Assembly: GCF_032854445.1 (NCBI RefSeq)
Contig: NC_088298.1
Location: 20,299,295-20,363,294 of the forward strand
Direction: 5' to 3'
Length of the DNA stretch: 64,000 bases
From: Liolophura sinensis
Taxonomy: Eukaryota > Mollusca > Polyplacophora > Chitonida > Chitonidae
Shown in pieces: positions 18,270 through 41,664 of the stretch. Below the pieces are notes generated by a model. That model saw only the letters and a list, made by a program, of their open reading frames with translations. It did no database searches and was not told the origin of the DNA. A program made the translations under genes and the position numbers. Position 1 is the stretch's first letter; each line of letters opens with the position of its first letter.

Positions 18270-18415
18270 GTTGGCCAGATTTTGCTGTCTTGTGTTGGCG
18301 ATGTGATGCAATGCTAGGCCTAACCGGCCTTTCCAAAGTCCAACGGTTCATTCTTGGCATCGTTGTTCTGCTTTTTGTGGACTTGTTGAGAGTGGTGTCT
18401 TCAGAACTGACTCAG
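18270..18415 (+). CDS. SLC35F5: SLC35F5-like exon 1 (copy 1, start codon)
   Basis: Acceptor TTCTTAG, donor GTAAAG, so at least one upstream non-coding exon is expected. ATG at 18311 gives [20 protein letters not shown], then [15 protein letters not shown], the first membrane helix and the conserved SSELT motif. Two upstream ATGs in the exon are out of frame and quickly stopped (small uORFs). Identical protein is encoded at 25729-25874. Confidence 0.9.
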
Positions 18416-21400: not shown

Positions 21401-24400
21401 GCACTTCGCAGTCTTTTGACTGTTTTATTATCGTTAGAGATAATCTCTGTGGGGAATAAGCATGACGACCCAGTATCTTAACGCATGTGGTGTGTCATGT
21501 CAAATATCCGTTGTTAAACTGCAGTGTTCTCTGTATACAAAGCTGTAGCAGAATTTAGCACACCACGAACCCATACTTACAAACTAGGCCTACCAGCAAA
21601 TGAGATGAAGATGCAGCTGTAGCTAAGCATTTCTTATTCATTCTGGGGTAATCTGAAGGACAGTCAACTTCCGCCCATATTTCGTAAAGAGGAATATTTA
21701 ATTTTCTTAATACTTAATCAAGTTCACTGAGATGAAATTTTAGTCATACAGATCGGTTTTATCTAAATGAGATGAAAGCCACTTACAGTCACAGGACCTC
21801 AAAATTTCCATGTGTCTACCCATCGATCACATGATTTTTGCTGGCAAAAGGCAAAAATCTTGTCAGTCGCTGAAGGACATATAAGTCACGTCTGGGCAAA
21901 ACTATATGCAGGAAATCATAAAACATTTTGTTTATAAAGCCAGTAAGGATGCTGTGTGAACTCCTAATGTGATAACAACTCAAACAAATCCGATATGCCG
22001 GGCTTGCACACAGGCCTACTGGAAAGGGTAAAAGTAAATCGTGGTAGTTTTCGAAACGTCGCATAGAAAATGTTTTCTAAGTTCCCGATATAATAGGAGC
22101 ACAGTTCGGACCGTAAAGAAACAAAATGTGTGTGTAGACTGACATACTAATAGGAATTACTTGATTCATAGATATATTTAGAGATGAACATCTAGGCCTA
22201 CTGCCAGGAGACCTGACACCTCACTGTCAGTGACATGATTCATAGATATATTCAGAGATGAACATGCAGGCCTACTGGCCAGGAGACCTGACACCTCACT
22301 GTCAGTGACATGACCCAAGTGGCGAGGATTAGCAACCAGAGCTGCTAAATGACATACAGAGTAATGAAATTGGCAGAGAGCTAATCGTTCTTTTTTCTTA
22401 TCTTTGCTGCAAACTCAAATCACGCAAAAGTAAACAACATTTAACTCACGTGTGGAACTTTAGGTCAGTTAAAGTTTCTTAATGATGAACCAGTCTGCTA
22501 GTTTAACCACTAGTTCATCCCATTCTTATGCTCTCAGCCCTCACCAGTTCAAGTCTTGCCTCTGGCATAAAACAGCAATCATATAAATAAATTGAATCTT
22601 GCCCCAACATAAATACCAACCATTTTGCCATCTGAAGCATTCATAGAAATCAGGGGTTATCTCCCTTGTTATGTTTGATGTCAAAAAAGGTGGTGTTGCT
22701 CAGCCAACTAATTCAGAAGTGGATTTTCTGGTTGATTATAAGTCGTGACTAGAGAGAGTTGCTTGCAGAGTGACCCATCATTGTAACATGATCAAGAGCA
22801 TAGTAAATGAAGTCACGTAGCCACTGATTGTTTTCAGCCATGTTGATTATTTACTCAAGACTCAAAATGTGGAAGCAGGCTGCTTCGGTGGCCTAATGGT
22901 TAGAACATCCATCTCGAAGTTGGGAGACCCGGGATCAACCCTGGTCGGGTCATACCAAAGACTTTAAAAATGATAGTTGATGGTGCCTCACTTGGCGCTC
23001 AGCACTGATGGGTTAGAGCAAAGAAGCATGGACTGGTTTGCTTGGTGTCAGTATATGTGACTGGGTGGGATGTCTTGTCTGGTGTCTTTGCGTGATACTT
23101 CAGTGGAGGCAGCACTTTGGCAGCATGGGCTCACCCTGCCACAAGAAGACACAGTATATGTACAAACACATAATGACTCCCTCATCATGTCCTATGACTG
23201 AAAACTTGTTAAGTATGATTTTAAACCCGAGGTGTTCATTCATTCATTCATTCATAATGTAGTAAACTGACCTTGTCTATGTTGTATTCGTCAGAGTGAA
23301 CCGATTTATGTTCCGATCAAAGTGGAGAAGACGAGCGGTACAGAGTCTGAAGACGGCTCAGGTAAAATAAAGGCAGATCCAAGAGTACTGTTAATAACCT
23401 AAAATTTGGCCGAAAAATAATTTTTATAGGTCACTAAGAACCTTAATACATTTATTTTTGTTTGTTGAAAGTTACATTTTCCCAGTAGGATGAGATCAAC
23501 AGAATTCTCAGAATCTGGCGAAATGTTCGACTTAGTCATGGTGAAATTTCAGNNNNNNNNNNNNNNNNNNNNNNNNNNNNNNNNNNNNNNNNNNNNNNNN
23601 NNNNNNNNNNNNNNNNNNNNNNNNNNNNNNNNNNNNNNNNNNNNNNNNNNNNNNNNNNNNNNNNNNNNNNNNNNNNNNNNNNNNNNNNNNNNNNNNNNNN
23701 NNNNNNNNNNNNNNNNNNNNNNNNNNNNNNNNNNNNNNNNNNNNNNNNNNNNTATTATCTATTAAAAATTTATTTATTTTTATTTGAGTTAGGCCCTACA
23801 ATTATATCCTGCTATTAAGGAGACATTGAGGACCTCTCGAATTCTGACATCACATTAGGCCTATACTAAATTAAAAAATAAAAGTCCACCCCCATTTTTT
23901 TTTTATAATTCAAATGACCGTTTTTACTGATCCATAGGGTAAAAACCGAATGGGATCGTAAACTACATTACATTGAATTAAATTGTAACAGTGTCGGTTT
24001 TTTGGATGAAGAGAGAGGGAAGCATTTTAACAGCACCCCGAAAGAGGGCGGGACGTGTGTGGGAGGTAACTCGTGACGACAGGGACTGTCGGTGCTTCAC
24101 CAGCGAGAAGTTATTGGAAAATATTGGTGAATACTTATCTCGTTTTACTTTGTGTAACCTGTGTATTGCTTATAAATTTGCTTTTTCAAACTGATTTCAG
24201 TAAATTCCACCGATCATGCTTGTCGTGGTGTTTACAGTTTATTACGGCAGACGACAGATTATTGTCGACAACAACAACGACATCAACATTGAAGATAACT
24301 GTCAAAGCACGCATGCGGATGCCTATCACGTATGAGTCATTGGCAAATGGAAATGTATAATTGCAGCAACTAATTGCAACAATACAACACAGGAGCACTG

Positions 24401-27400
24401 TCATTTCATTTAAATAGTCCTGTTACGTTGTACAGCGGCACTAGCGTTTCTATGGCTATGAAGTAATTATGCAAGGTTGAAAATGTAATGATCCGTGTTG
24501 GCATTTCAGGAGCCCAACGAGTGCATGCAGATATTGACGAGACAGGGTGGGGGTTCTCGCAAACTAATGCAGCTGAAAGGCTTTTAGATTTTATTTTACT
24601 TGTTAGACTGAATATACATCTTGCAAAGCTGGGGTATGTGGGTAGTAGCTACCGTAAAATCACATCTTTTAGTTGAATTAGTTTGCGAGAGCTGTCTTGT
24701 TTAAACCTGTGTGAACTCAAATCACACACACACACAAAAAAGACTCCTGATATGCTGACTCAGCTTATTGTAACAGGTTTTTAATGAGCAAACTCCACTA
24801 TGGTTTTTGCTCCATTGTAACAAGTGCTATTTCAGTTCTGATGGAATAATTTGAGGTTTTTGTTTGTCAGGGAACATATTACAGATGATGCTTTGCTTTA
24901 ATATTTTTTTTTTTTGATTTATTTACTTGATTGGTGTTTTATGCCGTACTCAAGATTATGTCACTTATACGAAGACAGCTGGCATTGGGGTGGGGGAAAA
25001 CTGGGCAGATCCCGGGGGAAACCCACGACCATCCGCAGATTTGCATTAATATCGGATGCCGTTCCAACTGCAGTGACTACTGGGTTGAGAAATATTTGAA
25101 TAGGCCATAATCATGGCTGCTCAACCTCTAGTCAGAGACCCTGTTGTTCGCTTGATGTGGTGAGGCACAGATTGCGGAGCAAATAAGATCTCCACTTACC
25201 TCTAGCTGGCCAAATCTTTGTCGTAATGTCTCCACGTCCAGTAATAATAAAAATCCTACTCACAGTTTTGTAGAAGTGTGTAATTATATCACGATTTGAT
25301 TATTCATTCATTTATAAGGATGTGGACGTCGCCCTTAAATTTCGTTTCACAAATATACATAAGCCAGATTTAAAATAGAAAGTTATTAAAAGTATTAAAG
25401 TCATACTATGACATTTCTCAAAAAATTGTTTGAGAGATTTTCAAATTTTCAGCAGGAAAAAAATGTTTTTATCCCATTGTCAAACACGATTTCACCGTCC
25501 CTTCTCAATCCAGTTCTGAACTAGACAAATGTTATTGTAATACTTAGTAAAATCAGTATCTATTCCATAAACATGATAAAGTGTTTGTATACATGTAGGA
25601 ATATTATAACACCCTTCAATCTCCTGCAATTTTAAGGATCATATCTCTTGCCTTATGACTTGCTAATCTAACATATGCTGATTAAATTAACATATGTATT
25701 TTTGCTGTGTTTTACTGTTACTTCTTAGGTTGGCCAGATTTTGCTGTCTTGTGTTGGCGATGTGATGCAATGCTAGGCCTAACCGGCCTTTCCAAAGTCC
25801 AACGGTTCATTCTTGGCATCGTTGTTCTGCTTTTTGTGGACTTGTTGAGAGTGGTGTCTTCAGAACTGACTCAGGTAAAGCACAAGAAACTATTTCTCTG
25901 GTATTTTCACTTTCATTTTTCAAACAAATGAAAGCAGATGCATTACCCGTAATTGCATTTTCAAAATTAAAGTGAGGGAAGTTGTTTTTGTAAATTCAGA
26001 ATCAGCGTTAAAGGATACTTGAAAATTGACTCTGAAGGGAAGATTATGGTTTTAAGGGAAAGGGAAAAAGATGCCCCCCCCCCCCAAATATTCTGGCCTC
26101 AACCTACCGATGGTTGAGTGTTTTCCCTGGGTTCTGTCCAGTTCCTCCCCAACATAATGCTAGCCGACGTTGTATGAGTGAAATATTCGTTAGCAGGTCA
26201 TAAAAAAATTGACAATAAATGTGTCATAGTGGCTAGGTGGTGTGAGGCAAGGGAGGTAATTCCTTAGAAGCCTATTGCATGCTGTACATTTCTGATGGAT
26301 TCGTGGTAATGTGTGCCTGCATGCAAGTTGCAGTACATTTTTTTTTGTGTGTTTATATTTTTCAGTACATCTTTAATGATGTGAGCTTTGACAAGCCATT
26401 CTTCACAACTTACCTGAAGACGACAATGTTCATGTTGTACCTGCTTGGATTTTTGTTATGGCGGCCGTGGAGAAGACAATGTCGAAAAGGGGCTTTGGTA
26501 AGCACAGTAAATCAAAAGTAGGCAAAGTATAGATACTCGTATATATGGTATCTGTTGGAGTGTCATGTATGGTGTCTGTTGGGTGTGATTCTTGGTGATT
26601 GTTGGAATGTGATACATAGTATCTGTTGGAGTGCCATGTCTGGTGTCTGTTGGGTGTGCTACATGTTGATTGTAGGGGTGTGATCCACGGTGTCTGTTGG
26701 TGTGTTATATCTGGTGTCTGTTGGGTGTATACTTGTGATCATGGAATCTGTCAGTGTCATGTCTGGTGTCTGTTGGGTGTGATACATGTAGATTGTTGGG
26801 GTGTGATCCATGGTGTCTGTTGGAGTGCCATGGCAAGTGTCTGTTGGAGTGTCATGGTTGGTGCCTGTTGGGTGTGATACATGTTGCTTGTTAGAGTGTC
26901 ATGACTGGTGTCTGTTAGGTGTGATAGATGGTAAGCACAAATTATCACAAGTAGGCAAGACATACACTAAAACTGGCAGCCTTCCTATGCTGTACTTATG
27001 AGAGGATAAACAGTGCACTGGTCTGTATACTGTAACTAATTGGGCCCTGGCATGTGCTGTCCATTGGATGTGATCCCTGCTGACCATGGCTAGTGTCTTA
27101 CCTATGTATTCCAGTCAAGCTGTTCAATATTAGTGTGACCGTGCTGAGATCAATTTGTTACAAAGCAGTTGAACTTTGATCTAGGAAGTTATGACTGTGA
27201 CCTTATTTGTATGAATGAGCCTGGTATTTACTATAAATGTTTGTTTTCACATTTTGAAAAAGCAGTTGAGTTTTTCAAATTTTTACGTGTGTCAGACCCT
27301 AGATCTGTAGGCTCAGCCAACTGTCTGTCCACTTAAAACGAAGAACAGAAGACTTATGACATTAACATGTGCATATTCTCTAGTATAAAAGAAAGAAGAA

Positions 27401-30400
27401 AAAAAAAACTTGATTTGATCAATTTACATTTGAAGTACAAGAAGTCATTGATAGTTCTTTTCTGTGGAACAATTCATGCTGATTTGTTTGTTTCTCACAG
27501 ACTTTGGTCAACACATGAAATTGTAATTATATCTCATTTTCCAAATGTATATAAAGTCAAATAAGTTTCTTGTAAAAAGAGTCAAAATGGATCAGACTTT
27601 AGACAATCGATGGAATTATTTTTTTGTTTTTTTTGTATTCGCCTGTGTACCATATATATCATACAGGGGCATATTGGTATAGGACAATATTGGCGGGAAT
27701 AATGCTCCACAGAGCTTGCTTTGTCCCAGCGTAGTTATTAACTAATACTAATGACAGTAATGGCGAATTATACAGTACAGATGAGAGATGGCTGCTTTTT
27801 TTTTTTAGCTTTAAAGAAAAACGAAACAAAATGAAATGTGCATGATCCATATATCCTACATAATATAATACATTTAACGCTAGATAATAAACATCTGTTG
27901 CAGGAATTCAGATTTAAGTTTTGGTTTAAACAGAGGTGAAGAATTAAGACTCCTGCATTAAGTTGATAATGTGTTCTTATTATGTGTTTTTTTTTATATT
28001 TAATTCTTTGTGTTACAGGTGATTCCACCACATAAGGTTGAAGACATCGATTCCGGGGGAGAATCAGAAAGCTATCTGGTGAGTTTCATTAAATTCTTGA
28101 ATATTTCTGCAATGTGACAATTGTTACTGTTCATTCGTTGTTTTCATCACATTACATGGTGTGTCTTGTTTGTTATCCAGTTACCTTCATCTTTTATTAT
28201 ACGACGTTAAACTGCAAGCACTCACTCACTCATCTTTTACTATATGATGCTAAACCCCAAGCACTCACTCACTCATCTTTTACTATACGACGTTAAACCC
28301 CAAGCACTCACTCACTCATCTTTTACTGTACAATGTTAAACCCAAAGCACTCACTCACTCATCTTTTACTATACGACGTTAAACCCCAAGCACTCACTCA
28401 CTCATCTTTAACTATATTTACACTAATCAAAGATACAGTTTATTGACCAATGAACCATTCAACTAGCTGATCTATAATGTATAAACCAGTCAGGTAACAG
28501 ACTGGTAAACCAGTAATCTACAAACCAGTCAAACAAGGTACATGTGTAAACCAGTGGGGAACAGACTGACAAGCCAGTCAGTTAACTGAGAATAAACCTG
28601 GCACATAACTGGTCAATGAACAAGTGAAGTGCTAAATGACCTTAAGTTTCAGCCTGAGACTGAGAAAGTGTATCGCAGGATGCATTGCATTGGTTGTGGT
28701 TGTTACTAACTGAGCGCTTGGGGAGAGCATGAGGGGTGGTCAGGGGATTATATTGACAGTTCAGGAATGTGATCAACAAGCTCTGTTCACCAAAAGTCAG
28801 TTGACAGTTCATGTTTTCCTCATAATAATAATAATAATAATAATAATTTTAGTTCATGCACTTCGCAATCTTTTGACTGTTTTATTATCGTTAGAGATAA
28901 TCTCTGTGGGGAATAAGCATGACGACCCAGTGTCTTAACGCATGTGGTGTCTCGTGTCAAATATCTGTTGTTGTACTGCAGTGTTCTCTGTATACAAAGC
29001 TGTAGCAGAATTTAGCACACCACGAACCCATACTTACAAACTAAGCCTACCAGCAAATGAGATGAAGATGCAGCTGTAGCTAAGCATTTCTTATTCATTC
29101 TGGGGTAATCTGAAGGACAGTCAACTTCCTCCCATATTTCGTGAACATGAATACTTAATTTACTTAATATTTAATCAGGTCCCCTCAGATGAAATTTTAG
29201 TCATACAGATCGGTTTTATCTACATGTAGATACAAGCCACTTACAATCACTGGACTTGAAATTTGCACGTGTCTACCTATCAATCACATGATTTTTGCTG
29301 GCAAAAGGCAAAACAATAAGCTTGTCTGTCGCTGAAGACACGTAAGTCATGTCTGGGCCAAACTACATGCAGGAACTCATAAAACATTTTGTTTATAAAG
29401 CCAGTAACGATGCTGTGCAAACTCCTAATGTGATATCAACTCAAACAAATCCGATATGCCGGGCTCGCACACAGGGCTACTGAAAAGGGTAAAAGTAAAT
29501 CGTTTTCGGAAACCTCACATAGAAAATGTTTTCTGTCTTTGATGAAGTTCCCGATATAATATGAGCGCAGTTGGGACCGTAAAAAAACAAAATTTGTGTG
29601 TAGACTGACATACTAAATTGGAATTACTTGATTCATAGACATATTCAGAGATGAACATGCAGGCCTACTAGCCAGGAGACATGACCCAAGTGGCGAGGAT
29701 TAACAACCAGAGCTGCTAAGTGACATACAGAGTAATGAAACCGACAGGCAGCTAATCGCTCTCTTTTGTTACCTTTGCCGTAAACTCAGATCATGCGAAA
29801 GTAGACGACAGTAACTCGTGTCAGTCATTTAAAGTTACTGAATGATGAACCAGGCTGCTAGTTTAACCACTAGTTCAACCACTAGTTCATCCCATTTTCA
29901 TGCTCTCATCCCTCGCAAGTTCAAATGTTGCATATGGCGTAAAACAGCAATCAAATAAATAAATTGAATCTTGCCCCATCATAAATACCAACCATTTTAC
30001 CATCTAAAGCATTCATCGATATGAGGAGTTATCTCCCTTGTTACGTTTGCTGTCAAAAATTTTTAACATGATCAAGAGCATAATAAATGAAGTCACGTAG
30101 CCACTGATTGTTTTCAGCCATGTTGATTATAAACTCAAGACTCAAAATGTGGAAGCGGGCTGCTTCGGTGGCCTAATGGTTAGAACATCCACCTCAAAGT
30201 TGGGAGACCCGGGATCAAACCCTGGTCGGGTCATACAAATCCTTTAAAAATGGTAGTTGATGCTGCCTCACTTGGCACTGAGCACTGAGAGGTTAAAGCA
30301 AAGAAACATGACTGGTTTGCTCGGTGTCAGTATATGTGACTGGGTGGGGTGTCTTGTCTGGTGTCTTTGGCGTGATACTTCAGTGGAGGCAGCACTTTGG

Positions 30401-33400
30401 CAGCATGGGCTCACCCTGCCACAAGAAGACACAGTATATGTACAAACACATAATGACTCCTCATCATGTCCTATGACTGAAAACTTGTTAAGTATGATTT
30501 TAAACCCGAGGTGTTCATTCATTCGTTCATTCATTCATTCATTCAAAATGTGGTCAACTGACCTTGTCTATGTTTGTATTCATCAGAGTGAACCGATTTA
30601 TGTTCCGATCAAAGTGGAGAAGACGAGTGGTACAGAGTCTGAAGATGGCTCAGGTAAAATAAAGGCAGATCCAAGAGTACTGTTAATAACCTAAAATTTG
30701 GCCAAAAAGTTAAAAAATTTTTACAGGCTACTAACAACCTTAATACATTATTTTGTGTTTTGAAAGTTACATTTTCCAGTAGGATTTGACTCTACCTCGT
30801 AAACAAATATGAAAACAACTTTCTAAGATCAACAGAATCCTCGGAATCTGGCAAAATGTTTGACTTAGTCATGGGTGAAATTTCAGGGGTTTGTTGCGGT
30901 AAATATTCAGGTGATGATAGATTGCACAAAGTGTGTCTTCGGTGTGATACTTCAGTGGCAACAGCTGCCCAGTGACTGGCACTGCCACTGGAAGACATAG
31001 TATACAGACAGACTTCTTATGTCTCGTCGTCATGTGGCTGAAAAATTGTTAACTAAGATGTTAAATCCCAACCCTACATACATACATACATACATACATA
31101 TATACATAAACCACATACATACGTACATAAACCACATATATACATACATACGTACAGGCAAACAAACATACAAACAAACAGTCTGAGCCAGGAGTAAAGT
31201 TGAAACCAGCCAGAAGCTGAACCAAGAGTATAGCTTCCAGGGCTGATACTTTCAAAGAAAAGGCTAACCCAAAAGTTAAAAGTCAAGTTGACTCTGCAAA
31301 TTAATTTACAGAAGTGTAAATATTAAGTTTCATAGCATTTCACAATACAGAAATTCAAACATTTAAGTATAAAAATAATATCAACCTGCAGAAGCATTAA
31401 GTATATTAGTGTTTCTCTTTGTTTCAGTGGAGGACAGTAGATCAGTGCGATTCAGCAACCTGTCCGAAGTCCGTCAGTGTCCAGGTGTGTTGTCTTGTTA
31501 TAATCAGTCTTTGAGTAAATATAAAGCCTTTCCAGCAGGTGCCAAGCCTCAGTTTCGCATTCCGTCAGTGTTTTCTTATAAACAGTTGAGGGGCAGTTGA
31601 GGCAGAACCTTCTCGCCCAGGTGGTGGCTGTGAGTTCAAGCCCAGCTCATCCAGGCTTCTTCTAGCTCCTGCTGTCTGCCAAGGTGACACACCAACCTGC
31701 TGATGGTCATGGGTTTCTTCCCACTATAACGCTGGCTGCCATTGTATAGTGAAATATTCTGGAGTGTGGCATAAGCACAAATCAGATAAATCAGTAAATA
31801 TAAATAGTTGATGCTTCAATGATTATGATCAAATGTAATCAACAGTTTTATGTTACTTCATGTGTAACGTGGCTGAGGATTAATTTGATGCTTCAATGAT
31901 TATGATCAAATGTAATCAACAGTTTTATGTTACTTCATGTGTAACGTGGCTTAGGATTTATTTGATGCTTCAATGATTATGATCAAATGTAATCAACAGT
32001 TTTATGTTACTTCATGTGTAACGTGGCTGAGGATTAATTTGATGCTTCAATGATTATGATCAAATGTAATCAACAGTTTTATGTTACTTCATGTGTAACG
32101 TGGCTGAGGATTAATTTGATGCTTCAATGATTATGATCAAATGTAATCAACAGTTTTATGTTACTTCATGTGTAACGTGGCTTAGGATTAATTTGATGCT
32201 TCAATGATTATGATCAAATGTAATGAACAGTTTTATGTTACTTCATGTGTAACGTGGCTTAGGATTAATTTGATGCTTCAATGATTATGATCAAATGTAA
32301 TCAACAGTTTTATGTTACTTCATGTGTAACGTGGCTTAGGATTAATTTGGTGAAATGTTTCAGTGAAATATGTTCATGTGTGCGTTGACATATTGGCTAA
32401 AGTTGCTATGTTGTAGAGGAGTTGGTTCAAAACTGACCTTGGGAAGGAAATTTGCAGATACCCTGCTCTCAGTGCTTACGGGGCCTTGGTGACAAAAAGT
32501 AGCCAATGAGGATCATTTACGCTTTTTTGCCCAGTTTAAAATTTGTTGAAGATAACTTGCCTTTCACACAATTGTTGTGTGCATATCTGTACATTGCATA
32601 TAGGAAAGTGTGTCAGTATCTTGCCAAAGGTGGTTGGTTTTCTCCCAGGCTCTCAGGTTTCCTCCACACATAATATTGACCGCTGTTGTGTAAGTGAAAA
32701 ATTCTTGAGTATAAAATTAAGCAACGTTCAGATTTCAATAGATTGTAAAAGGCAATTCTGTGGGTTTTGTATGTTGCAGACAAATTTGCGGAGGATGCGT
32801 TGATAGCACGACTGTCCTACACTGCGTCTTTACGGGCAGAGGAAGCTAGATTTAGATCGCTAAGCAAACTCAGCGTCAAGGAGGTTGCCAAGCTCAGCTT
32901 TATCTTCTGTATATTGGTAAAAACATTTGCTGTTTTCGTTTCTTTCTTCAGTGGTGCAAAGTTCTATATACACTTCCATAAATATCCAAGGAATTGCTCT
33001 GGCTTGGTTGGTGCTGACTGTTTTTCACCTCCTTTCTATGGAGTGAAAATTTGAAGTCAAATTATATTATTATTATTTACTTTTTTAAAAGTTGAGGACC
33101 TTTGTAAGTAGTTAATTTTGACTCTTGTCTCTACAGGTCAGGTGTTCAAATCCATCACTGGCAGGTTCAGCTAGAGTGTATTGAATTTTTTTATTTCCCC
33201 ACTCCCACTGTTTGTAGGACCTTGGTGACAGTAAGAGGGTCATTTGCATTGTCCTACATATGCTAATAGTCACTTGTCTTTCGTCATTTATGACCTGGAA
33301 GTTTGCATGTCACACATGAGCATGATGGGAAACTTTGTCAATAATTCTCAGAGGCCTTAGGTATTAAACCAGACAATAAGGTTTCTTCCATAATGATAGT

Positions 33401-36400
33401 AGTGACTGCTATGGTACATGTATCAGGGAAAAATGCTAGAAGAAGTTGATTTCCATAAACATCTGCCGTTTAATAACAATCAAATAAGAAAGTTTTTTAA
33501 CCAGATTTCCCAGAAAAAATTGCCATTATTCACATTGTTCTTTCTCCAGTGGTTTTTCGCAAACCTTGCCTACCAGGAGGCGCTTCACGATTCCCAGGCG
33601 GGCATGGTCAATGTGCTTTCATCCACGTCAGGGTTTTTTACGCTTATCCTGGCAGCCATTTACCCAACATCCAATGCGGACAAATTCACATTGTCCAAGC
33701 TGGTAGCAGTGTTGGTTAGGTAAGCATACACAACCTAAAGTTTGTTATGTAACAGTGTACTTTCAGAAGCACATAAAGGCCTTGAAATGGTACTCTGATG
33801 TCAGTGCTGAAGTCTCTCTGATAAAGAAATTAATCATACCGATAACTTCACAAAAAACTTCAGAAAGTGGGCGAAGAAGTAAATCGAACTTCACAAAAAA
33901 AAGAAATCCTAGATGGCCCCAAAAGGTGGACAAAGGAGTGAGTCAGACTACACAGAAAAACTCTTTAAATGGTTCCAAAAGATGGACAAAGGAGTGAGTC
34001 AGACTACACAGAAAAACTGTGGTTCCAAAAGGTGGATGAATCCAATCAGAATGAAGCATAATGTGTGGACAATTGCTTAACTTCAGGTGATCTACAGAAT
34101 TTGGTGTTCATTTGTGTTCATGCTTTAGTATGTTTTTAATCCCACACTTCCAGAACTCCGGAGACCTGGGATCAAACCCAGGTCGGGTCATACCAAAGAC
34201 TTTGAAAATGGCATTTGTCGCTGCTTCTCTTGGCGCTCAGCACTTGAGAGATTAGAGCAAGGAGGTAGGGCTGTTTGGCCCTGTGTCAGTATAATGTTAC
34301 TGGGTAGGGTGTCATGTCTGGTGTCCTCAGCATGATACTTCAGTGTGGCAGGACTTTGGCTGCATGGGCTTGCCCTGCCACAAGAAGACACAGTATATGT
34401 ACAAACACCTAATGACTCCTTCTCGTCATATGACTGAAACATTGTAACATATTACCTTGCATCCCAGGCATTCATTCACTCGTTCCCACGCTTCCATGCA
34501 CGGTCTTCTCGCACCATAGTGCTGGCAGCTGTAAATATTCTTAAGTACAGCGTAAAACGACAATCAATACTTGCACATGTAAATAACAAGCAGATATATA
34601 ATCCACATACCAGCTGCAGTGTGCTTCTGGATTATCTCCCTTGTCTCACGACAGCAGCTGGGACATTATGCAAGATTACTTTTTGAGATGTAAAACTGAA
34701 ACCCCATGGGACCTCGTCTATTAAAGTAGGCCAGTGAACCCCTATATGAGTTACGTTACGAAAATGGCCAGCGTTTTCTTGGGGACAGAATGTATAAAAA
34801 GATGACATCAGTCATTGAGAGTTGTAGAAATGCTGAGGTTCCACCTGACCTCAGCTGAGATCAAGGGAGTTCATTCAGTGCGTCCCTGTTTAATGCAGTA
34901 ATCAATAGCTCTCTCTCTCTCTGTCTCAACAGTATTGCAGGAGTCATTCTGGTCAGTCTATCAGACAAGCAGTTCAGTGAGCTGGATATCCCCGTGGGCG
35001 CTCTCTGGGCGCTGCTAGGGGCCATGTTGTACGCGTTTTACTTGGTTGTTCTCAGGAGGAAGGTCGACCATGAAGACAAGATTGATATACCTATGTTTTT
35101 TGGTAAGATTGATATACCTATGTATTTTGTTAAGATTGATATACCTTTGTATTTTGATAAGATTGATATACCCATGTATTTTGTTAAGATTGATATACCT
35201 GTGTATTTTGGTAAGATTGATAAAAGATTGATATACCCATGTATTTTGGTAAGATTAAGATTGATATACCTATGTATTTTGGTAAGATTGATATATGTTT
35301 TTTGATAAGATTGATATACCTAAGTTAATTTGTGATTTATTTGATTGGTGTTTTATGCCATACCCAAGAATATTTCACTTATATGATGGTGGCCAATAGA
35401 ACACCAATCAAATAAATAAAAAAATAAAGTCTGACAAGCCCCTCTGTGTTACAAGTCTTTGAAATTGCTCCACCAGATCTGACATCTTTTTTTTTTTCCT
35501 TTTGCTGCAGGTTTTGTAGGCTTGTTCAATGCCTTGCTAATCTGGCCAGGCTTTTTGATTCTCCACTACACGAAGACCGAAGAGTTCCAGTGGCCTAGCA
35601 AGCAACAGTGGCTTTACGTCTGTGTCAATGGCATGGTGGGAATGGTCGTGTCAGAATTACTCTGGGTCTGGTGAGTCAGACACGACTACTGTAAATGGTC
35701 AACCTTTTTTGACCACTAAAGCTCTGTTTTCTGTGGAATATATGATTACAGTTATTATGGAAGTGATGCTGAAATGATCTGTTTTTGTCACTAAATCTGC
35801 AAGCTTCAATAGATTATTTCTCTGCAGCTCATACACGTCCTCTGAGAATGTTGTGAAAATATTTGTCACAGAGGAGGATGAAAATGTTGAAGAATTATAG
35901 TCTTTATAGATATTTACAAGTGCTGCCTTGAAGTTGCCTTAAAATTAAACAATAAATAGATCAAAAAAATTCTTACACGAGTGTACGATTTAGAAGAAAA
36001 GAAATTCTCAGATAATTTATACTGACATATGAGAACTTGAGCTAAAGTTTGGTAAATATAGAATATTTTATTTGATTAATGAATATGGATTTTGTGCCAA
36101 AAATCTAATAGCAGTGAATTTTAATTTTTAACATTTTATTGCAAGGCTCGAGGGACAGAACCGTTAGGGCCTCATCTGAATTACCTCCCTTGTTACATAA
36201 CTGGAGCTATAACAATGCAAGATTAGTTTTTGATGCATGAAATTAAGGGAAGTGGGACCTTGCCAAGTGAAGTATGCCCATGGAGTATGAATTTATTTAT
36301 TTATCTGATTGGTGTTTTACACCGTAATCAAGAGTATTTCACTTATACAACGGCAGCCAGCATTATGGTGGAAGGAAACCGGGTAGAGCCCGGGGGAAAC

Positions 36401-39400
36401 CCACAATCATCCGCAGGTTGCTGCAGACCTACCCACTTACGGCCGGAAAGGAAGCCAGCGTGAGCTGGACTTGAACTCACAGCCACCGCATTGGTGAGTG
36501 ACTCCTTGGTCATTACGCTGCGCTAATGCGCTAACCAACTGAGCCACGGAGGCCCCCATGGAGTATGTAGGTTATGTCACAATAGCTAATGGCAACTAAA
36601 GGATAGGCAACATACTACAAAACAAAAAACAAAAAAATACATGACATAAGCCATTGAGAGTCACAGATTTTAAAATAATAAAGTCTATGTTTTCAGCTTA
36701 GGTATAATATACATACTTGACAGAATTCTCCGAAGATATATCTGTTCTACATGTACAGCCACAAGGACAAGCAATAGGCAGTTTTTCCAGATGGTACATT
36801 TGTAGGCTGAGAGCTACATGTATCAAGGCAATCAGTGGGGACATTTCGGACGTGCGCTGGGTACACTCAGATATTTTGTCCTTTTTTCTTGAACAAATAA
36901 CTGTATGTAAAAGGCCTTGTGTTGTTGTTTAGGACTTCAGCAGGGAACATACGCATTATATAATATTTTCCCTATGCGCTAAATTATGATAAGTCTGAAG
37001 ATATTAGAACGTCGTGAGTTTCCAGGCATAACCCTGTATAGAAATTTTACCTCCAGGCCCTGAAGAGTTCAAGATCCAGCCACATGTACGCATACATGTC
37101 TAATTTGTGTGTTTCAGCTGATAATGTTGGTGCCCATGTAGGTGTATTAACACTCTAATTAGTTTCTCACTTAGAAAGAAAAATAATAGTCAACAAGGTT
37201 GTTCCAGAGTTTCCTTCCCTTTATATGAGATATGTTGTGTTAACATCTTGACTGGGCGTGAGTGAGGGAACTTGCTATTCAGCCATTGAAATTTCGTGTA
37301 CTGTATTTTTTTATTTATTTATTTATTTATTTGATTGGAGTTTTAAGCTCTACCAAAGAACCTGCGGGTGGTCGTGGGTTCCACCCTGGCTCTCCCCGGT
37401 TTCCACCCACCATAATGCTAGCTGTCGTGTAAGTGAAATACTCTTGAGTACGGCATAAAACACAAATCAAACAAATAAATGAATCTACCAAAGAATATTT
37501 CACTTATGTGATGGCGGCCATCATTATGGTGGGAGGATACCGAGCAGAGACAGGCAGGCTGCTGGCAGAACTTCCCAAGTACGACCGGAGAGGAAAACAT
37601 AAGCTGGGCTTGAACTGACATCAGCTGCATTGGCAAAAGAGATTCTGCAAGTTCATTGTTTTGCGCGTGCACATAAACCACTAGGCTCCAAAACTTGATG
37701 TATCAATCAGATGTATTATGGTTTATGTTTCAGGGGCTGTTTTCTGACCACGTCACTTGTTGCCACTTTGGGGCTAAGCTTAACCATTCCTCTCAATATG
37801 GCCGCTGATGTTTTCATGAAGAATGTAAGTTTACTGTCAATCCTGGGTTGAGTCACACCTAAGACCTTGAAGGAGGAAGTTATATCTTTCTCGCCTGGCA
37901 TTCAGCATGAAGGGGGATAGTGCGACGACTGGTTGACCGGTATCAGCATAATGGCTTGGGCAGGGTGGCTTACTTGCCTTCATTAAGGTGTCTCAGTGAA
38001 GCAGCACTAGATAAAAGAGCGGTGGAAATCCGTCCTGCAACAAGGAGGCACATTACATGCACTCTAAGGATTGCTTCGTTGTCATTTGACTGAAAAATTG
38101 TTAAGTACCATGTTAAACCCCAAGCACTCACTCACTAAGTTTACTGTCAACATTTTCAATATGTGGGTTTTTGGAAAATGACCTATAGTCACATGATCTG
38201 TTTTCGTTCTGGAGGGCCTAAGGAAACTACCTGGCCTTGGACAGGAAGTTTGATTCTCACTGTGTGTGACAGTTAGTGGTCAGTGACTCTAATCTGGCAG
38301 TTGGCACAGCCTAGGGTTTTTCAAAGACCACTTGTCTACCACCAGTATGGTGTGTATATCTGTATGTCACATGTGGCTAAGCTTGTCACTGACTGACCAA
38401 GGGCATTCTTCATCCATGGAACTGACCAGTATTGTAATCAAGACACATTCTTAAGGATGGCGTTAAACAACCATTAAATATGTAAATACAGAAACCTTGC
38501 AGCATTTTAGAAATTAGTTAATTATGAATAATTTCTCAAACGTGTTTGTTCAGTGAAATTATTTATTTTGGGTTTAGAGGCTCAGAGTTTTGTCATCCTA
38601 AAACATTAAAAAGTTCACAGCTTTGGTTATTGCATAGACGTCAAGTTACTAGGAAACGCCTTGCATGTTAAATCTTAGGCAGAATGGCTGGTTTTCGACT
38701 CTGTTGCCAAAGTTTAGGGCACAGAAAATCATCAAACCTTTTGTGAGCAAGCTAAGATTAGAGGGTCACGGATAATTATGACCATTTCAAACCTGAAAAT
38801 TATAATACTTTTAATCGTCGTGTGAAGATGAATTCGAGAAGTTAAATTACCTTCTTCTTGTTGTTGTTGCACAGGTTGCCCACTCGTGGATGTTTTACGT
38901 AGGCAGTGTTCCTATTTTCCTGTCATTTTTTGCCGTGAGCTTCTTATCACATTTTGATGGATGGGACCCTGTGTTGTTAGCGCTGAAAAAACTGCTACAT
39001 TGTGTTTGTCGTCTGGTAACTTTACCCAGGTGAGTAAACCAGTCATATCCACACGACTGAAATTCCCAACAAAAAACTGCTACATCGTGATTGTCGTCTA
39101 GAAACTTTACCCAGGTGAGTAAATCAGTCATATCCACACGACTGAAATTCCTCAACAATAAACTGCTACATCGTGATTGTCGTCTAGAAACTTTACCCAG
39201 GTGAGTAAACCAGTCATATCCACACGACTGAAATTCCTCAACAAAAAACTGCTACATCGTGATTGTCGTCTAGAAACTTTACCCAGGTGAGTAAAGCAGT
39301 CATATCCACACGACTGAAATTCCTCAACAAAAAACTGCTACATCGTGATTGTCGTCTAGAAACTTTACCCAGGTGAGTAAACCAGTCATATCCACACGAC

Positions 39401-41664
39401 TGAAATTCCTCAACAAAAAACTGCTACATCGTGATTGTCGTCCAGAAACTTTACCCAGGTGAGTAAACCAGTCATATCCACATGACTGAAATTCCTCAAC
39501 AAAAAACTGCTACATCGTGATTGTCGTCTAGAAACTTTACCCAGGTGAGTAAACCAGTCATATCCACACGACTGAAATTCCTCAACAAAAAACTGCTACA
39601 TCGTGATTGTCGTCTAGAAACTTTACTCAGGTGAGTAAATCAGTCATATCCACACGACTGAAATTCCTCAACAAAAAACTGCTACATCGTGATTGTCGTC
39701 TAGAAACTTTACCCAGGTGAGTAAAGCAGTCATATCCACATGACTGAAATTCCTCAACAAAAACCTGCTACATCGTGATTGTCGTCTAGAAACTTTACCC
39801 AGGTGAGTAAACCAGTCATATCCACACGACTGAAATTCCTCAACAAAAAACTGCTACATCGTGATTGTCGTCTAGAAACTTTACTCAGGTGAGTAAACCA
39901 GTCATATCCACACGACTGAAATTCCTCAACAAAAAACTGCTACATCGTGATTGTCGTCTAGAAACTTTACCCAGGTGAGTAAACCAGTCATATCCACACG
40001 ACTGAAATTCCCAACAAAAAACTGCTACATCGTGATTGTCGTCTAGAAACTTTACCCAGGTGAGTAAACCAGTCATATCCACACGACTGAAATTCCTCAA
40101 CAAAAAACTGCTACATTGTGATTGTTGTCCAGAAACTTTACCCAGGTGAGTAAACCAGTCATATCCACACGACTGAAATTCCTCAACAAAAAACTGCTAC
40201 ATCGTGATTGTTGTCCAGAAACTTTACCCAGGTGAGTAAACCAGTCACATCCACACGACTGAAATTCCTCAACAAAAAACTGCTACATCGTGATTGTCCA
40301 GAAACTTTACCCAGGTGAGTAAACCAGTCATATCCACAGGACTGAAATTCCTCAACAAAAAACTGCTACATCGTGATTGTCGTCTAGAAACTTTACTCAG
40401 GTGAGTAAATCAGTCATATCCACACGACTGAAATTCCTCAACAATAAACTGCTACATCGTGATTGTCGTCTGGTAACTTTACCCAGATGAGTAAATCAGT
40501 CATATCCACACGACTGAAATTCCTCAACAAAAAACTGCTACATTGTGTTTGTCGTCTGGTAACTTTACCCAGGTGAGTAAACCAGTCACATCCACATGAC
40601 TGAAATTCCCAACAAAAAACTGCTACATCATGATTGTCGTCTAGAAACTTTACCCAGGTGAGTAAACCAGTCATATCCACACGACTGAAATTCCTCAACA
40701 AAAAACTGCTACATCGTGATTGTCGTCTGGTAACTTTACCCAGGTGAGTAAACCAGTCATATCCACACGACTGAAATTCCTCAACAAAAAACTGCTACAT
40801 CGTGATTGTCATCTAGTAACTTGACCCAGGTGAGTAAATCAGTCATATCCACACGACTGAAATTCCTCAACAAAAAACTGCTACATCGTGATTGTCGTCT
40901 AGAAACTTTACCCAGGTGAGTAAACCAGTCATATCCACACGACTGAAATTCCTCAACAAAAAACTGCTACATCGTGATTGTCGTCTAGAAACTTTACCCA
41001 GGTGAGTAAACCAGTCACATCCACACGACTGAAATTCCCAACAAAAAACTGCTACATCGTGATTGTCGTCTAGAAACTTTACCCAGGTGAGTAAACCAGT
41101 CATATCCACACGACTGAAATTCCTCAACAAAAAACTGCTTCATCGTGATTGTCGTCTGGTAACTTTACCCAGGTGAGTAAACCAGTCATATCCACACGAC
41201 TGAAATTCCCAACAAAAAACTGCTACATCGTGATTGTCGTCTAGAAACTTTACCCAGGTGAGTAAACCAGTCATATCCACACGACTGAAATTCCTCAACA
41301 AAAAATTTGATACTCACACCTGACCAATATCCTTGAATGAAATGTTCTTAAGTATAGTAATCAGCACCGATCAAATGAGTAATTAGTTATGCTTGAAAAC
41401 TATTGTTTAAGATACAATTTTGTCATCAAATAGATGGTATCAAATCAAATGATGTTTGAAATAGCAAGAAAGCAAACGCGTCACGCTATGGATGAAGCAG
41501 TATGCAATTTGGAAACAACAACAACACCACCATAATCAAAATATATATCTAACATTGTTGTTTGTTTGGGTTTGTACAGGGTCCATGTCTGGGAATTGGA
41601 CCGTGAGCAGTCGGAGAGTCTGATTGGTGTAGACAGCACAGACGGAAGCCTCCATACCACATGA
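18270..41664 (+). CDS. SLC35F5: SLC35F5-like solute carrier (12 coding exons)
   Basis: Exons: 18270-18415, 18912-19043, 20571-20630, 23295-23361 (or second copies 25729-25874, 26366-26497, 28019-28078, 30587-30653), then 31428-31484, 32780-32916, 33550-33719, 34933-35102, 35511-35670, 37734-37824, 38875-39029, 41580-41664. Splice phases join throughout and give 462 residues from ATG 18311 to TGA 41662-41664, near the human length once the longer human N-terminus is allowed for. Family motifs: [79 protein letters not shown] and the tail ESLIGVDS. It is a multi-pass drug/metabolite transporter, an orphan member of SLC35. Two of its exons (8 and 11) run into donor-spanning tandem repeats. Confidence 0.95.
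18616..18630. repeat. Poly-C/poly-A tract
   Basis: Run of C followed by A. Its length differs from the counterpart at about 26075-26087 in the other haplotype copy. Confidence 0.9.
18643..18765 (+). mobile_element. Degenerate SINE-A 3' half (copy 1)
   Basis: CCTACCGATGGTTGAGTG, CCCCGACGTAATGCTAGCCA and GAGTGAAATATTC are recognisable but diverged. Counterpart at 26094-26215. Confidence 0.65.
18912..19043 (+). CDS. SLC35F5: SLC35F5-like exon 2 (copy 1)
   Basis: 132 nt between TTTTCAG and GTAAGC; codes [20 protein letters not shown], then a helix [12 protein letters not shown] and [12 protein letters not shown]. Matches human [20 protein letters not shown]. Phase 0. The donor region reappears at 19479. 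Confidence 0.96.
19080..19500. repeat. Degenerate about 20-bp repeat array ending in a donor copy (copy 1)
   Basis: Many imperfect repeats of GTGTCTGTTGGAGTGTCATG. At the far end GGTAAGCACAAATTATCACA (19478) mimics the exon 2 donor region GGTAAGCACAGTAAATCAAA (19043), and similarity continues through AAGTAGGCAA. Counterpart at about 26540-26955. Confidence 0.85.
20571..20630 (+). CDS. SLC35F5: SLC35F5-like exon 3 (copy 1)
   Basis: 60 nt, 20 codons, between TTACAG and [26 protein letters not shown]. Acidic, cytosolic-type linker that is poorly conserved in the family. Identity is supported by perfect splice signals, phase 0 on both sides and conservation in both haplotype copies. Confidence 0.85.
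20765..20945. repeat. SINE 3'-tail tandem array, 4 units (copy 1)
   Basis: About 42-bp units: CTTTTACTATATGACGTTAA plus ACCCCAAGCACTCACTCACT. The core is the SINE-B/C 3' end amplified without the rest of the SINE. The other haplotype has five units (28195-28415). Confidence 0.9.
22175..22312. repeat. Tandem duplication present only in haplotype copy 1
   Basis: A block of about 80 bp (TCATAGATATATTNAGAGATG to CACCTCACTGTCAGTGACAT) occurs twice here but only once, shortened, at about 29630-29690. Confidence 0.8.
22876..23255 (+). mobile_element. SINE-B, full length (copy 1)
   Basis: Head GCTTCGGTGGCCTAATGG with A box, B box GGGATCAACCC, body, and tail GATTTTAAACCCGAGGTG followed by ATTC repeats. 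Ends about 40 bp before exon 4. Confidence 0.92.
23295..23361 (+). CDS. SLC35F5: SLC35F5-like exon 4 (copy 1)
   Basis: 67 nt between GTCAG and [26 protein letters not shown] then GS and G. Matches the human motif SEPLYVPVK. Ends in phase 1. The copy at 30587-30653 differs only by silent changes (for example GAC/GAT). Confidence 0.94.
23553..23752. other. Assembly gap of 200 N
   Basis: Exactly 200 undetermined bases, a round number typical of a scaffolding gap of unknown true size. The flanks are the right end of duplicated copy 1 and the left end of copy 2. Confidence 0.98.
24911..25045 (-). mobile_element. SINE-A, head-truncated (copy 2)
   Basis: Haplotype counterpart of the element at 17472-17605, with identical truncation. 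Confidence 0.86.
25729..25874 (+). CDS. SLC35F5: SLC35F5-like exon 1 (copy 2)
   Basis: Same splice borders and same protein as 18270-18415; ATG at 25770. Only one of the two copies can belong to a normal transcript. Confidence 0.9.
26094..26215 (+). mobile_element. Degenerate SINE-A 3' half (copy 2)
   Basis: Counterpart of 18643-18765; keeps CCCAACATAATGCTAGCC. Confidence 0.65.
26366..26497 (+). CDS. SLC35F5: SLC35F5-like exon 2 (copy 2)
   Basis: Second copy of exon 2. One silent difference (CAG to CAA in RRQC). The donor is again followed by the 20-bp repeat array and a second GTAAGCACA at 26931. Confidence 0.95.
26540..26955. repeat. Degenerate about 20-bp repeat array (copy 2)
   Basis: Counterpart of 19080-19500, with the same unit and the same donor-like terminal copy. 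Confidence 0.85.
28019..28078 (+). CDS. SLC35F5: SLC35F5-like exon 3 (copy 2)
   Basis: Identical to exon 3 at 20571-20630, borders included. Confidence 0.85.
28195..28415. repeat. SINE 3'-tail tandem array, 5 units (copy 2)
   Basis: Same 42-bp unit as 20765-20945 with one more copy, which is a length polymorphism between the two blocks. Confidence 0.9.
28824..28849. repeat. (ATA)n microsatellite
   Basis: About eight ATA units here against three in copy 1 (near 21381). Confidence 0.95.
30157..30545 (+). mobile_element. SINE-B, full length (copy 2)
   Basis: Best B box of the family (GGGATCAAACCC) and an (ATTC)n tail longer than in copy 1. Confidence 0.92.
30587..30653 (+). CDS. SLC35F5: SLC35F5-like exon 4 (copy 2)
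   Basis: Second copy of the SEPIYVPIK exon, phase 1 at its end. This copy is contiguous with exon 5 without a gap. Confidence 0.94.
30928..31078 (+). mobile_element. SINE-B 3' fragment
   Basis: TGTCTTCGGTGTGATACTTC, ACTGGAAGACATAGTATACA and CTGAAAAATTGTTAACTAAG, with a CATA microsatellite in place of the usual tail. Confidence 0.8.
31076..31170. repeat. (CATA)n microsatellite
   Basis: ACATACATACATACATACAT followed by imperfect variants, grown from the SINE-B tail. Confidence 0.92.
31428..31484 (+). CDS. SLC35F5: SLC35F5-like exon 5
   Basis: 57 nt between GTTTCAG and GTGTGT. TG completes Val, then [18 protein letters not shown] and [12 protein letters not shown] matches the human VRFSNIMEIRQ. 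Cytosolic loop. Phase 1 on both sides. Confidence 0.95.
31622..31800 (+). mobile_element. SINE-A, diverged
   Basis: B box GAGTTCAAGCCCAGCTC, body with ACTATAACGCTGGCTGCC, tail with AAATCAGATAAATCAGTAAA. Confidence 0.78.
31808..32348. repeat. 77-bp minisatellite, 7 copies
   Basis: Seven nearly identical units (TTGATGCTTCAATGATTATG ... GTAACGTGGCTGAGGATTAA) directly after the SINE-A in SLC35F5 intron 5. Confidence 0.96.
32400..32545 (+). mobile_element. Possible old SINE, type D
   Basis: Contains GGGGCCTTGGTGACAAAAAG and AATGAGGATCATTTACGC, diverged but similar in order to 33113-33370 (ACCTTGGTGACAGTAAGAGG, CATTTGC). Weak family support. Confidence 0.35.
32622..32725 (+). mobile_element. SINE-A 3' fragment, diverged
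   Basis: GGTTGGTTTTCTCCCAGG, CACATAATATTGACCGCTG, TGTAAGTGAAAAATTCTTGA. Lies 55 bp upstream of exon 6. Confidence 0.72.
32780..32916 (+). CDS. SLC35F5: SLC35F5-like exon 6
   Basis: 137 nt between TTGCAG and [26 protein letters not shown], then [11 protein letters not shown] and [15 protein letters not shown]. Corresponds to human AKLSRMSY to VAKISFFFCF, entering the next membrane helix. Ends in phase 0. Confidence 0.95.
33113..33370 (+). mobile_element. Possible old SINE, type D
   Basis: B-box-like GTTCAAATCCATCACTGGC, then ACCTTGGTGACAGTAAGAGG. Resembles 32400-32545 and part of 38240-38475. Diverged. Confidence 0.4.
33550..33719 (+). CDS. SLC35F5: SLC35F5-like exon 7
   Basis: 170 nt between TCTCCAG and [62 protein letters not shown], then AG. 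The NLAYQEAL and [13 protein letters not shown] motifs are the strongest SLC35F5 signatures. Ends in phase 2. Confidence 0.97.
34150..34487 (+). mobile_element. SINE-B, 5'-truncated head
   Basis: Starts in the anticodon-like region (GGAGACCTGGGATCAAACCC) and continues through the body to TTGCATCCCAGGCATTCATT. Confidence 0.86.
34490..34570 (+). mobile_element. SINE-A 3' fragment
   Basis: GCACCATAGTGCTGGCAGCT, AATATTCTTAAGTACAGCG, AAAACGACAATCAATA. Confidence 0.7.
34615..34845. repeat. Old interspersed repeat
   Basis: Shares order and motifs with 36150-36660: TTATCTCCCTTGT against TTACCTCCCTTGT, TGCAAGATTA, GGGACCT, CATTGAGAGT. Probably an old mobile element of unknown type. Confidence 0.5.
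34933..35102 (+). CDS. SLC35F5: SLC35F5-like exon 8
   Basis: 170 nt between CAACAG and [63 protein letters not shown] and G. Matches human GAMLYAVYIVM and KVDREDKLDIPMFFG. The last 26 bases and the donor are the first unit of a 27-bp tandem repeat. Confidence 0.96.
35077..35323 (+). repeat. 27-bp minisatellite spanning the exon 8 donor
   Basis: About nine units of TAAGATTGATATACCTATG + TATTTTGG. Unit 1 is the exon end, and the following units lie in the intron. G|GTAAG is intact at 35103, 35211, 35249 and 35282 but altered to GTTAAG or GATAAG in other units. The frame stays open through five units. Confidence 0.95.
35330..35425 (-). mobile_element. SINE-A tail foldback
   Basis: TTTATTTGATTGGTGTTTTA at 35337 is followed 45 bp later by AACACCAATCAAATAAATAA, so two SINE-A tails face each other and can form a hairpin. 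Body mostly absent. Confidence 0.78.
35511..35670 (+). CDS. SLC35F5: SLC35F5-like exon 9
   Basis: 160 nt after a long T tract and CTGCAG; donor GTGAGT. Codes [53 protein letters not shown]. Matches human [20 protein letters not shown] and LSEFLWLW. Ends in phase 2. Confidence 0.97.
35671..36150. other. Intron without recognisable features
   Basis: AT-rich SLC35F5 intron sequence; no repeats or exons recognised. Confidence 0.5.
36290..36554 (-). mobile_element. SINE-A, full length with target-site duplication
   Basis: Flanked by CCCATGGAGTATG on both sides (36277-36289 and 36555-36567), a 13-bp target-site duplication. Complete head CTAACCAACTGAGCCACGGA and conserved body. Inserted into the old repeat of 36150-36660. 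Confidence 0.95.
37308..37483 (+). mobile_element. SINE-A composite, tail then inverted 3' half
   Basis: A minus-strand tail (TTATTTGATTGGAGTTTTAA) joined to a plus-strand half beginning AACCTGCGGGTGGTCGTGGG and ending ACAAATCAAACAAATAAATG. Confidence 0.82.
37484..37690 (-). mobile_element. SINE-A, tail-less
   Basis: AGAATATTTCACTTATGTGA, CATTATGGTGGGAGGATACC, GGCTTGAACTGACATCAGCT and a diverged head. Opposed to the preceding plus-strand half, which makes an inverted pair just upstream of exon 10. Confidence 0.82.
37734..37824 (+). CDS. SLC35F5: SLC35F5-like exon 10
   Basis: 91 nt between TTTCAG and GTAAGT: W (shared codon) [20 protein letters not shown] then [10 protein letters not shown]. 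Near-perfect family motif (human [20 protein letters not shown]). Ends in phase 0. Confidence 0.97.
37868..38137 (+). mobile_element. SINE-C copy
   Basis: CTTGAAGGAGGAAGTTATAT, GAAGCAGCACTAGATAAAAG, GTCCTGCAACAAGGAGGCAC and tail GTTAAACCCCAAGCACTCAC. Starts about 40 bp after the exon 10 donor. Confidence 0.85.
38240..38475 (+). mobile_element. Possible SINE, type D
   Basis: Has TTTGATTCTCACTGTGTGTG as a possible B-box region and ends CTTAAGGATGGCGTTAAACA plus an AT-rich tail. Only partly similar to other copies. Confidence 0.4.
38875..39029 (+). CDS. SLC35F5: SLC35F5-like exon 11
   Basis: 155 nt between TGCACAG and [57 protein letters not shown] and AG. Final helix and the conserved NWDP-like GWDPV motif. 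The last 40-odd bases are unit 1 of the 86-bp array that follows. Confidence 0.95.
38985..41305 (+). repeat. 86-bp minisatellite with 27 copies of an exon end and donor
   Basis: Each unit holds AAACTGCTACATCGTGATTG, the bases GTCTAGAAACTTTACCCAG, the donor GTGAGTAAACCAGTCATATC and CACACGACTGAAATTCCTCA. Unit 1 is the true exon 11 end. I counted 27 donor positions from 39030 to about 41256, of which 26 keep GTGAGT and one (about 40487) reads ATGAGT. The true end has CTGGTAACTTTACCCAG; that TGGTAAC variant recurs in a few later units. Confidence 0.97.
41580..41664 (+). CDS. SLC35F5: SLC35F5-like exon 12 (stop codon)
   Basis: Acceptor TTGTACAG. G completes Arg, then [27 protein letters not shown] and TGA at 41662-41664. 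EQSESLI matches the human tail SEQCESLIPM. Cytosolic C-terminus. Confidence 0.95.

Follow-up and report, generated by a model that had tools for sequence, protein, structure and literature searches.

A donor-headed 86-bp minisatellite at an exon end of an SLC35F-family gene in the chiton Liolophura sinensis, with similar arrays in other genes

In the chiton Liolophura sinensis, an 86-bp minisatellite has as its first unit the last stretch of a coding exon with the splice donor that follows it, and the intron that begins there carries 26 further units, nearly all of them with the same strong donor. The explanation that we favor, with a probability of about 0.65, is that the minisatellite was seeded at a donor and has been tolerated, since the first donor would mostly win and the use of a distal one would meet a stop codon. 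The initial annotation of this DNA treated the case as a single one. It is not: a 27-bp array of the same design occurs in the same gene, and exon ends of nine other genes head arrays as well. Positions given below refer to the window, i.e., the whole stretch of 64,000 nucleotides that was analyzed; a slash in a motif marks the exon-intron boundary.

The host gene and the 86-bp array

The array lies in a gene of the SLC35F family. Seven exons were joined by script into one open frame, and the resulting protein of 321 residues matches the Pfam families EamA (1.5e-12) and SLC35F (7.2e-05), passing both cut-offs. The gene is presumably SLC35F5, a name taken from the C-terminus of the human protein, and the tail is assumed to be conserved on the same basis. 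A PDB search with the joined protein gave no match, and the 56-residue exon that meets the array (38875-39029) has no Pfam match by itself; its peptide is found once in the 609-Mb assembly. The features needed here are the following:

32780-32916, 33550-33719, 34933-35102, 35511-35670, 37734-37824, 38875-39029 and 41580-41664, + strand: exons joined by script into one open frame with a terminal stop
38875-39029, + strand: penultimate coding exon of the SLC35F-family gene, whose last 44 bases are the exonic part of unit 1 (joined frame, Pfam)
39030-39035, + strand: donor GTGAGT of unit 1 (U1 pairing)
39030-41579, + strand: intron harboring the downstream 26 units (joined gene model)
40487-40492, + strand: inactive donor ATGAGT of unit 18, the sole one in the 86-bp array (donor-wise unit list)
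41580-41664, + strand: last coding exon, with the 27-residue tail and the stop (joined frame)

Tandem Repeats Finder places the array at 38986-41305 on the + strand, with a period of 86, 27.1 copies and 96% matches, and so the 27-fold repeat of the initial annotation stands. When the array is cut at its donors, 27 units result, with donor-to-donor distances of 83, 85 or 86; GTGAGTAAA is present in 26 of them and ATGAGTAAA in unit 18 only, in agreement with the earlier count of units that retain GTGAGT. Unit 1 consists of the last 44 bases of the exon, followed by the intron start with the donor CAG/GTGAGT. That this unit is an exon end with its donor was also claimed before, and the joined exons confirm it, as the frame is open across 39029 to 41580. 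The exonic part of unit 1 is coding to its last base, which supports the favored explanation.

Origin of the array

The 86-bp unit has at least 27 matches in the 609-Mb assembly, all of them within the array at 38986-41305. The array therefore arose in place; a source elsewhere in the genome, mobile or not, was considered and is unlikely, given that no match lies outside the array (search counts being lower bounds). The exonic variants of unit 1 reappear as a set in unit 19 and partially in units 14, 18, 21, 22 and 26, and from this sharing it follows that the array grew from the exon boundary and was later reshuffled.

These data fit a simple course of events. A tandem duplication across the exon-intron boundary would have placed a second exon end and donor in the intron, an origin that can be read from the units themselves, and unequal exchange or slippage may then have expanded the duplicate to 27 units. 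Unit 1 would remain the functional exon end and donor.

Could the repeat be an artefact of assembly? The idea has next to no credibility: 22 columns vary among the units, in mixed combinations, similar arrays made of different units are found at many loci, and the contigs reach up to 96 Mb.

Has selection kept the donors intact? The diversity of the donor's nine columns is 0.008, as compared with a mean of 0.048 along the unit, but of 86 circular nine-column windows, 9 have a value this low, counting that of the donor itself. It follows that the persistence of GTGAGT in 26 of 27 units requires no selection, and none is claimed. The search that yielded the genome-wide arrays relied on exact donor repeats and so favored intact donors; accordingly, their donor diversity was not used in judging selection.

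Donors without acceptors

The strength of a donor was taken as its pairing energy with the U1 5' end (ViennaRNA duplex). The donor of unit 1 reaches -13.8 kcal/mol and pairs more strongly with U1 than any of the other five donors of the joined model, which range from -5.3 to -9.4. In the window, this value is attained by 26 of the 3815 GTs of the + strand, all 26 inside the 86-bp array, and by none of the 4016 GTs of the - strand. The array donors are the strongest of the 3815 + strand GTs in the window, and this is beyond chance. The same energy is found in 25 of the 26 downstream units, so that the intron carries 25 such donors beyond unit 1; the description of the intron as a store of dozens of near-ideal donors was sound.

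Such a density of U1 sites invites the thought that the array is a loading platform for the U1 snRNP, kept because it guards the intron from premature polyadenylation or retains the RNA in the nucleus. U1 telescripting is a known phenomenon, donor motifs cause nuclear retention, and an array that combines 26 near-perfect U1 sites with a lack of good acceptors would suit either role. This function is highly improbable all the same: there is no clear sign of selection on the donor within the 86-bp array, half of the donors listed for the 27-bp array at 35.1 kb are gone, and GT is kept in just 18 of the 29 units of the array in BTAF1.

Acceptors were scored on a simple scale that uses approximate base frequencies. 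On this scale, eight acceptors of the gene, seven from the joined model plus that of a presumed exon at 31.4 kb, reach 3.0-7.7, as against a best score of 1.9 for the AGs of the 86-bp array, in which the AG/GT junctions have a median of 0.0. The units are consequently donor-only.

This bears on recursive splicing, in which each CAG/GTGAGT would serve as both acceptor and donor and the intron would leave in 86-nt hops, with no net change to the mRNA. Recursive (ratchet) sites occur in long introns and, like 26 of the 27 units here, they juxtapose AG and GT. In the 86-bp array, though, the AG/GT scores just given lie below those of the gene's own acceptors, and a pyrimidine-tract acceptor abutting the donor was not found in it. 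For lack of an acceptor, recursive splicing is unlikely in the 86-bp array and has only a very slight chance of being the explanation; it is less unlikely in the BTAF1 array, as fair AG/GT acceptors do exist in some other arrays (median score 5.8 in BTAF1). Fission-yeast introns that span duplicates of a 24-bp AGGT segment, reported in passages of PMC4974935, also lend it some weight.

Consequences of distal donor use

What would the choice of another donor do to the protein? Computed on the joined model, the use of the donor of unit 2, 3 or 27 yields a protein that ends in ...LVTLPR, followed by a stop. As the intron is in phase 2, read-through reads AGG TGA, i.e., Pro-Arg-stop:

39031-39033, + strand: in-frame TGA (CCC AG/G TGA) on distal donor use; phase 2 intron (read-through frame)

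The stop is at +1, ahead of every distal donor of the array. The prediction that any distal donor gives Pro-Arg-stop is thereby upheld for the three units computed, and the further one that just a tail of 27 residues is lost agrees with the tail length in the joined model. Distal-donor mRNAs are plausibly candidates for nonsense-mediated decay (NMD) rather than stable truncated isoforms, because a junction lies at least about 80 nt downstream of the stop. Passages of PMC2809761 describe the same arithmetic for Drosophila introns, where a GT(A/G)A donor in phase 2 puts TAA or TGA first, and argue that decay shelters newly arisen, badly spliced sequence.

The favored explanation builds on this point. 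The other 26 units would be excised with the intron, and the first donor, which lies beside the exon's acceptor, would mostly win. Where a distal donor is used, the immediate TGA would make the mRNA a candidate for decay, and for that reason the array may cost little.

An alternative is that distal donors are often used. Many bound U1 particles would then lead to the choice of donors near the acceptor, the array would be partly retained, and its copy number would set how much of the protein stops at Pro-Arg, short of the 27-residue tail, or is lost through decay. We consider this unlikely, although by no means far-fetched. Tuning of splicing or truncation by copy number, one of the options raised in the initial annotation, draws no support from the donor's conservation, which does not clearly exceed that of other parts of the unit, and the probable decay of distal-donor mRNAs speaks against stable truncated forms. 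The exon of 155 nt would gain 86 nt with each unit and pass the usual exon size after a few units, and conserved genes, MSH6 and BTAF1 among them, have retained donor arrays. On the other side are the 26 donors of equal U1 strength and two human precedents: in DOK7, where two donors compete, the intron-proximal one is preferred, being also the stronger of the two (PMC5585400), and IFI6 employs two downstream repeat units as donors (PMC4526556). As counterpoints to the favored explanation, these precedents would point to some distal donor use. The DOK7 source also reports that SRSF1 bound upstream suppresses the intron-distal donor in hundreds of genes (PMC5585400).

Read-through was followed in nine exon-end arrays: the two of the SLC35F gene, those of SUFU, BTAF1, alpha-fucosidase, the Fe-hydrogenase-like gene and APPBP2, and two (L029 and L051) that are not counted among the homology-supported cases below. 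A stop precedes the next intact donor in five of the nine. In the SUFU and Fe-hydrogenase-like arrays, the stop comes just past that donor, and in the alpha-fucosidase and 27-bp arrays the frame is still open beyond it; the absence of a stop before the second donor in these four runs counter to the favored explanation.

A second array in the same gene

Three introns upstream of the 86-bp array, the donor at 35103 heads another minisatellite, so that two of the six donors in the joined SLC35F model stand at the head of an array:

34933-35102, + strand: exon that supplies, with its end and donor, unit 1 of the 27-bp array (joined frame)
35078-35322, + strand: 27-bp minisatellite with the donor TTTG/GTAAGA (Tandem Repeats Finder, pattern listing)
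35511-35670, + strand: exon in frame with 34933-35102, the next after the 27-bp array (joined frame)

In this array, GT is kept in 4 of the 8 units listed by pattern, and the copies that have lost it include copies 2-4, directly after unit 1. Read-through meets no stop for 200 nt and would extend the protein in frame by KIDIPMYFx repeats. Two arrays are too few to say whether in-frame decoys are selected against.

The window holds other minisatellites, about 16 arrays with a period of at least 17, including one of 76 bp x 14.9 (5254-6388) and one of 77 bp x 7 (31808-32349). A segmental duplication links ~16400-22300 and ~23900-29800 at an offset of ~7.4 kb; numerous open frames of the segment are present in two copies, and so are its 24/71-bp and 43-bp arrays. 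A run of N at ~23550-23757, which appears as X on both strands, is a gap or a withheld stretch.

Donor arrays across the genome

In the 609-Mb assembly, three tandem copies of CAGGTRAGT with gaps of 60-90 give 1637 overlapping matches, as compared with 219 for the reversed motif, and the single motifs match 19957 and 7605 times, respectively. The mutated donor CAGCTRAGT has 173 tandem and 8847 single matches (its reverse, 21 and 3026), some of its triples being donor-array units that have decayed. The ratio of tandem to single matches is thus 8.2% for the donor, 2.9% for its reverse and 2.0% for CAGCTRAGT. For the acceptor motif TTTTNCAGG, the figures are 431 tandem and 41918 single matches (1.0%), with 121 and 25593 (0.5%) for its reverse. 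That donor arrays are commoner than acceptor arrays is not claimed, as the reversed controls differ in the same direction (2.9% vs 0.5%). A further donor motif, AAGGTAAGT, has 127 matches vs 55 for its reverse, as raw counts.

Match counts are inflated by long arrays. Among the first 100 places listed, the donor motif makes up 13 arrays and the reversed motif 26; counted by arrays and scaled to single motifs, the lead of the donor over the reversed motif falls from 2.9-fold to ~1.4-fold, a rough figure, as the donor and reversed listings come from different genomic regions. Relative to single motifs, donors show a modest tandem excess at the level of matches and a smaller one by array count, a point against the favored explanation. 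Roughly, then, donor arrays per motif are about as common as the controls or somewhat commoner, and they do not look purged.

The first 100 places listed for the single donor motif are all in the first 3 Mb of one contig (C1), and 57 of them fall in 8 clusters. On the same contig, the first 100 tandem donor matches listed end at 6.95 Mb, out of 1637 assembly-wide; this crowding in the first 7 Mb suggests that minisatellites gather near the chromosome end.

Exon ends that head arrays in other genes

A set of 47 donor arrays was taken, 19 via CAGGTRAGT, 7 from a further search and 21 via AAGGTAAGT (first 100 of 127 places), and 46 were usable, array L052 being left out as its piece lay inside the array. 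As controls, 20 of the 26 arrays of the reversed-motif listing were taken and 18 counted, without L037 (flanks absent) and L041 (no Tandem Repeats Finder row). In 9 of the 46 donor arrays, homology marks unit 1 as an exon end, reaching the donor or coming within a few residues of it (residues of the translated frame, best match and E-value):

SUFU: residues 11-54 of 54, against 1m1l, 2.2e-14
BTAF1/Mot1: residues 16-60 of 60, against 7zb5, 2.6e-18
Alpha-L-fucosidase: residues 7-39 of 39, against 7pls, 2.6e-11
Fe-hydrogenase-like gene: residues 17-66 of 67, 1.8e-12
APPBP2: residues 3-48 of 48, against 8jaq, 1.5e-12
MUTYH (L054, C7:23010000-23011900): residues 64-109 of 110, against 7efa, 8.6e-04; NUDIX_4, 5.2e-04, below the family cut-off
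MSH6 (L062, C3:6291230-6292690): residues 5-44 of 45, against 2o8b, 5.3e-10; the last residues of the query are inexact
KIDINS220: residues 26-62 of 62, against 9jxq, 5.6e-20
GMC oxidoreductase: residues 26-77, against choline oxidase 3nne, 8.2e-08

The true open frame of MSH6, ...NYLLAVAEK, reaches the donor, and residue 77 of the GMC oxidoreductase is the codon split by the donor GTAGGT at the array head. At the MUTYH locus, the exon adjoins a diverged 30-bp stretch, with an exact 29-bp array 660 bp downstream; the stretch is probably the start of that array. Two of these genes, MSH6 and MUTYH, serve DNA repair. The Fe-hydrogenase-like gene, which we take to be CIAO3/NARF, has an array (L023 and C1:5471572-5475216) in which later units with the dead donor CAGCTGAGT occur among live ones.

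With Pfam at E < 0.001, 7 of the 46 donor arrays and 0 of the 18 controls have a match, a difference that is not significant (two-sided Fisher p 0.18); one control array has a Pfam match at E 0.005. Several loci were set aside. L029 resembles a KATNIP exon by eye and was not counted, as DUF4457 is below the cut-off (E 0.19) and the PDB returned only designed PPR proteins, which were disregarded. L024, L028, L051, L061, L069, L072 and L073 look coding up to the donor and were not counted, being without homology: no family was found for the frames of six, and the short frame of L069 is under the 30-residue limit. The rest of the 46 include arrays that show no exon, and part of the class is therefore intronic or of lost origin. 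In the favored explanation, other donors of the same minisatellite-rich genome may have been struck by the same process.

Relation to known systems

Donor-bearing minisatellites are not new: the one in human IFI6 (6-16) has a repeat unit of ~12 bp and sits at an exon end. Turri et al. (1995) reportedly described it as giving multiple donors. IFI6 is the closest known case (6-16 or G1P3; the minisatellite supplying multiple splice donors is cited in PMC4526556 and PMC2572611): in both, minisatellite units serve as splice donors, in the chiton by prediction. As there, the 86-bp array begins at an exon end, unit 1 is that end with its donor, and good donors recur downstream. It differs in its unit of 86 bp, its 27 copies, the immediate stop on distal use and the presence of donor-headed arrays in several genes; moreover, donor use of the repeat units is known for IFI6, whereas for the SLC35F array it is predicted from sequence alone.

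Human segmentally duplicated genes have variable internal tandem repeats at exon-intron boundaries, with 27 intron modifications, according to passages of PMC2812944. Those are likewise minisatellites at such boundaries, where they alter splicing; they concern recent paralogues and were judged by transcripts, while the chiton arrays lie in conserved genes and are known from DNA. The Rogers 1989 model of intron gain, as outlined in passages of PMC4974935, starts from tandem duplication of an AG/GT segment, and the 86-bp unit does contain AG/GT within the duplicated segment. Here, the segment was already a working donor, and through its copies an existing intron has grown. A new intron with a good acceptor of its own was not seen in the 86-bp array, whose AGs do not attain the scores of the gene's own acceptors on our simple scale.

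In the full-text literature consulted, which covers part of the field, no report was found of donor-headed arrays recurring across a genome. In short, a donor-bearing minisatellite and boundary repeats are already known, and what is new here is scale and recurrence.

Outlook

To our knowledge, the choice among equal 5' splice sites has been studied mostly with two engineered or nearby sites. The SLC35F array offers a natural experiment with 26 donors of equal U1 pairing, regular spacing and one acceptor, and comparable arrays in other genes vary in spacing, reading-frame consequence and donor decay. Taken further, and as a speculation that we rate doubtful, donor-seeded minisatellites may be a recurrent class in which array length acts as a heritable dial: U1 would be loaded in number, the unit count would set the share of transcripts that are lost through stop codons or retained in the nucleus, and many conserved genes (the SLC35F gene, MSH6, MUTYH, BTAF1, SUFU, APPBP2, KIDINS220 and others) would have length-variable splicing alleles. 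These arrays could address a plain question: is the growth of minisatellites at exon ends neutral, buffered by NMD, or a source of variable expression?
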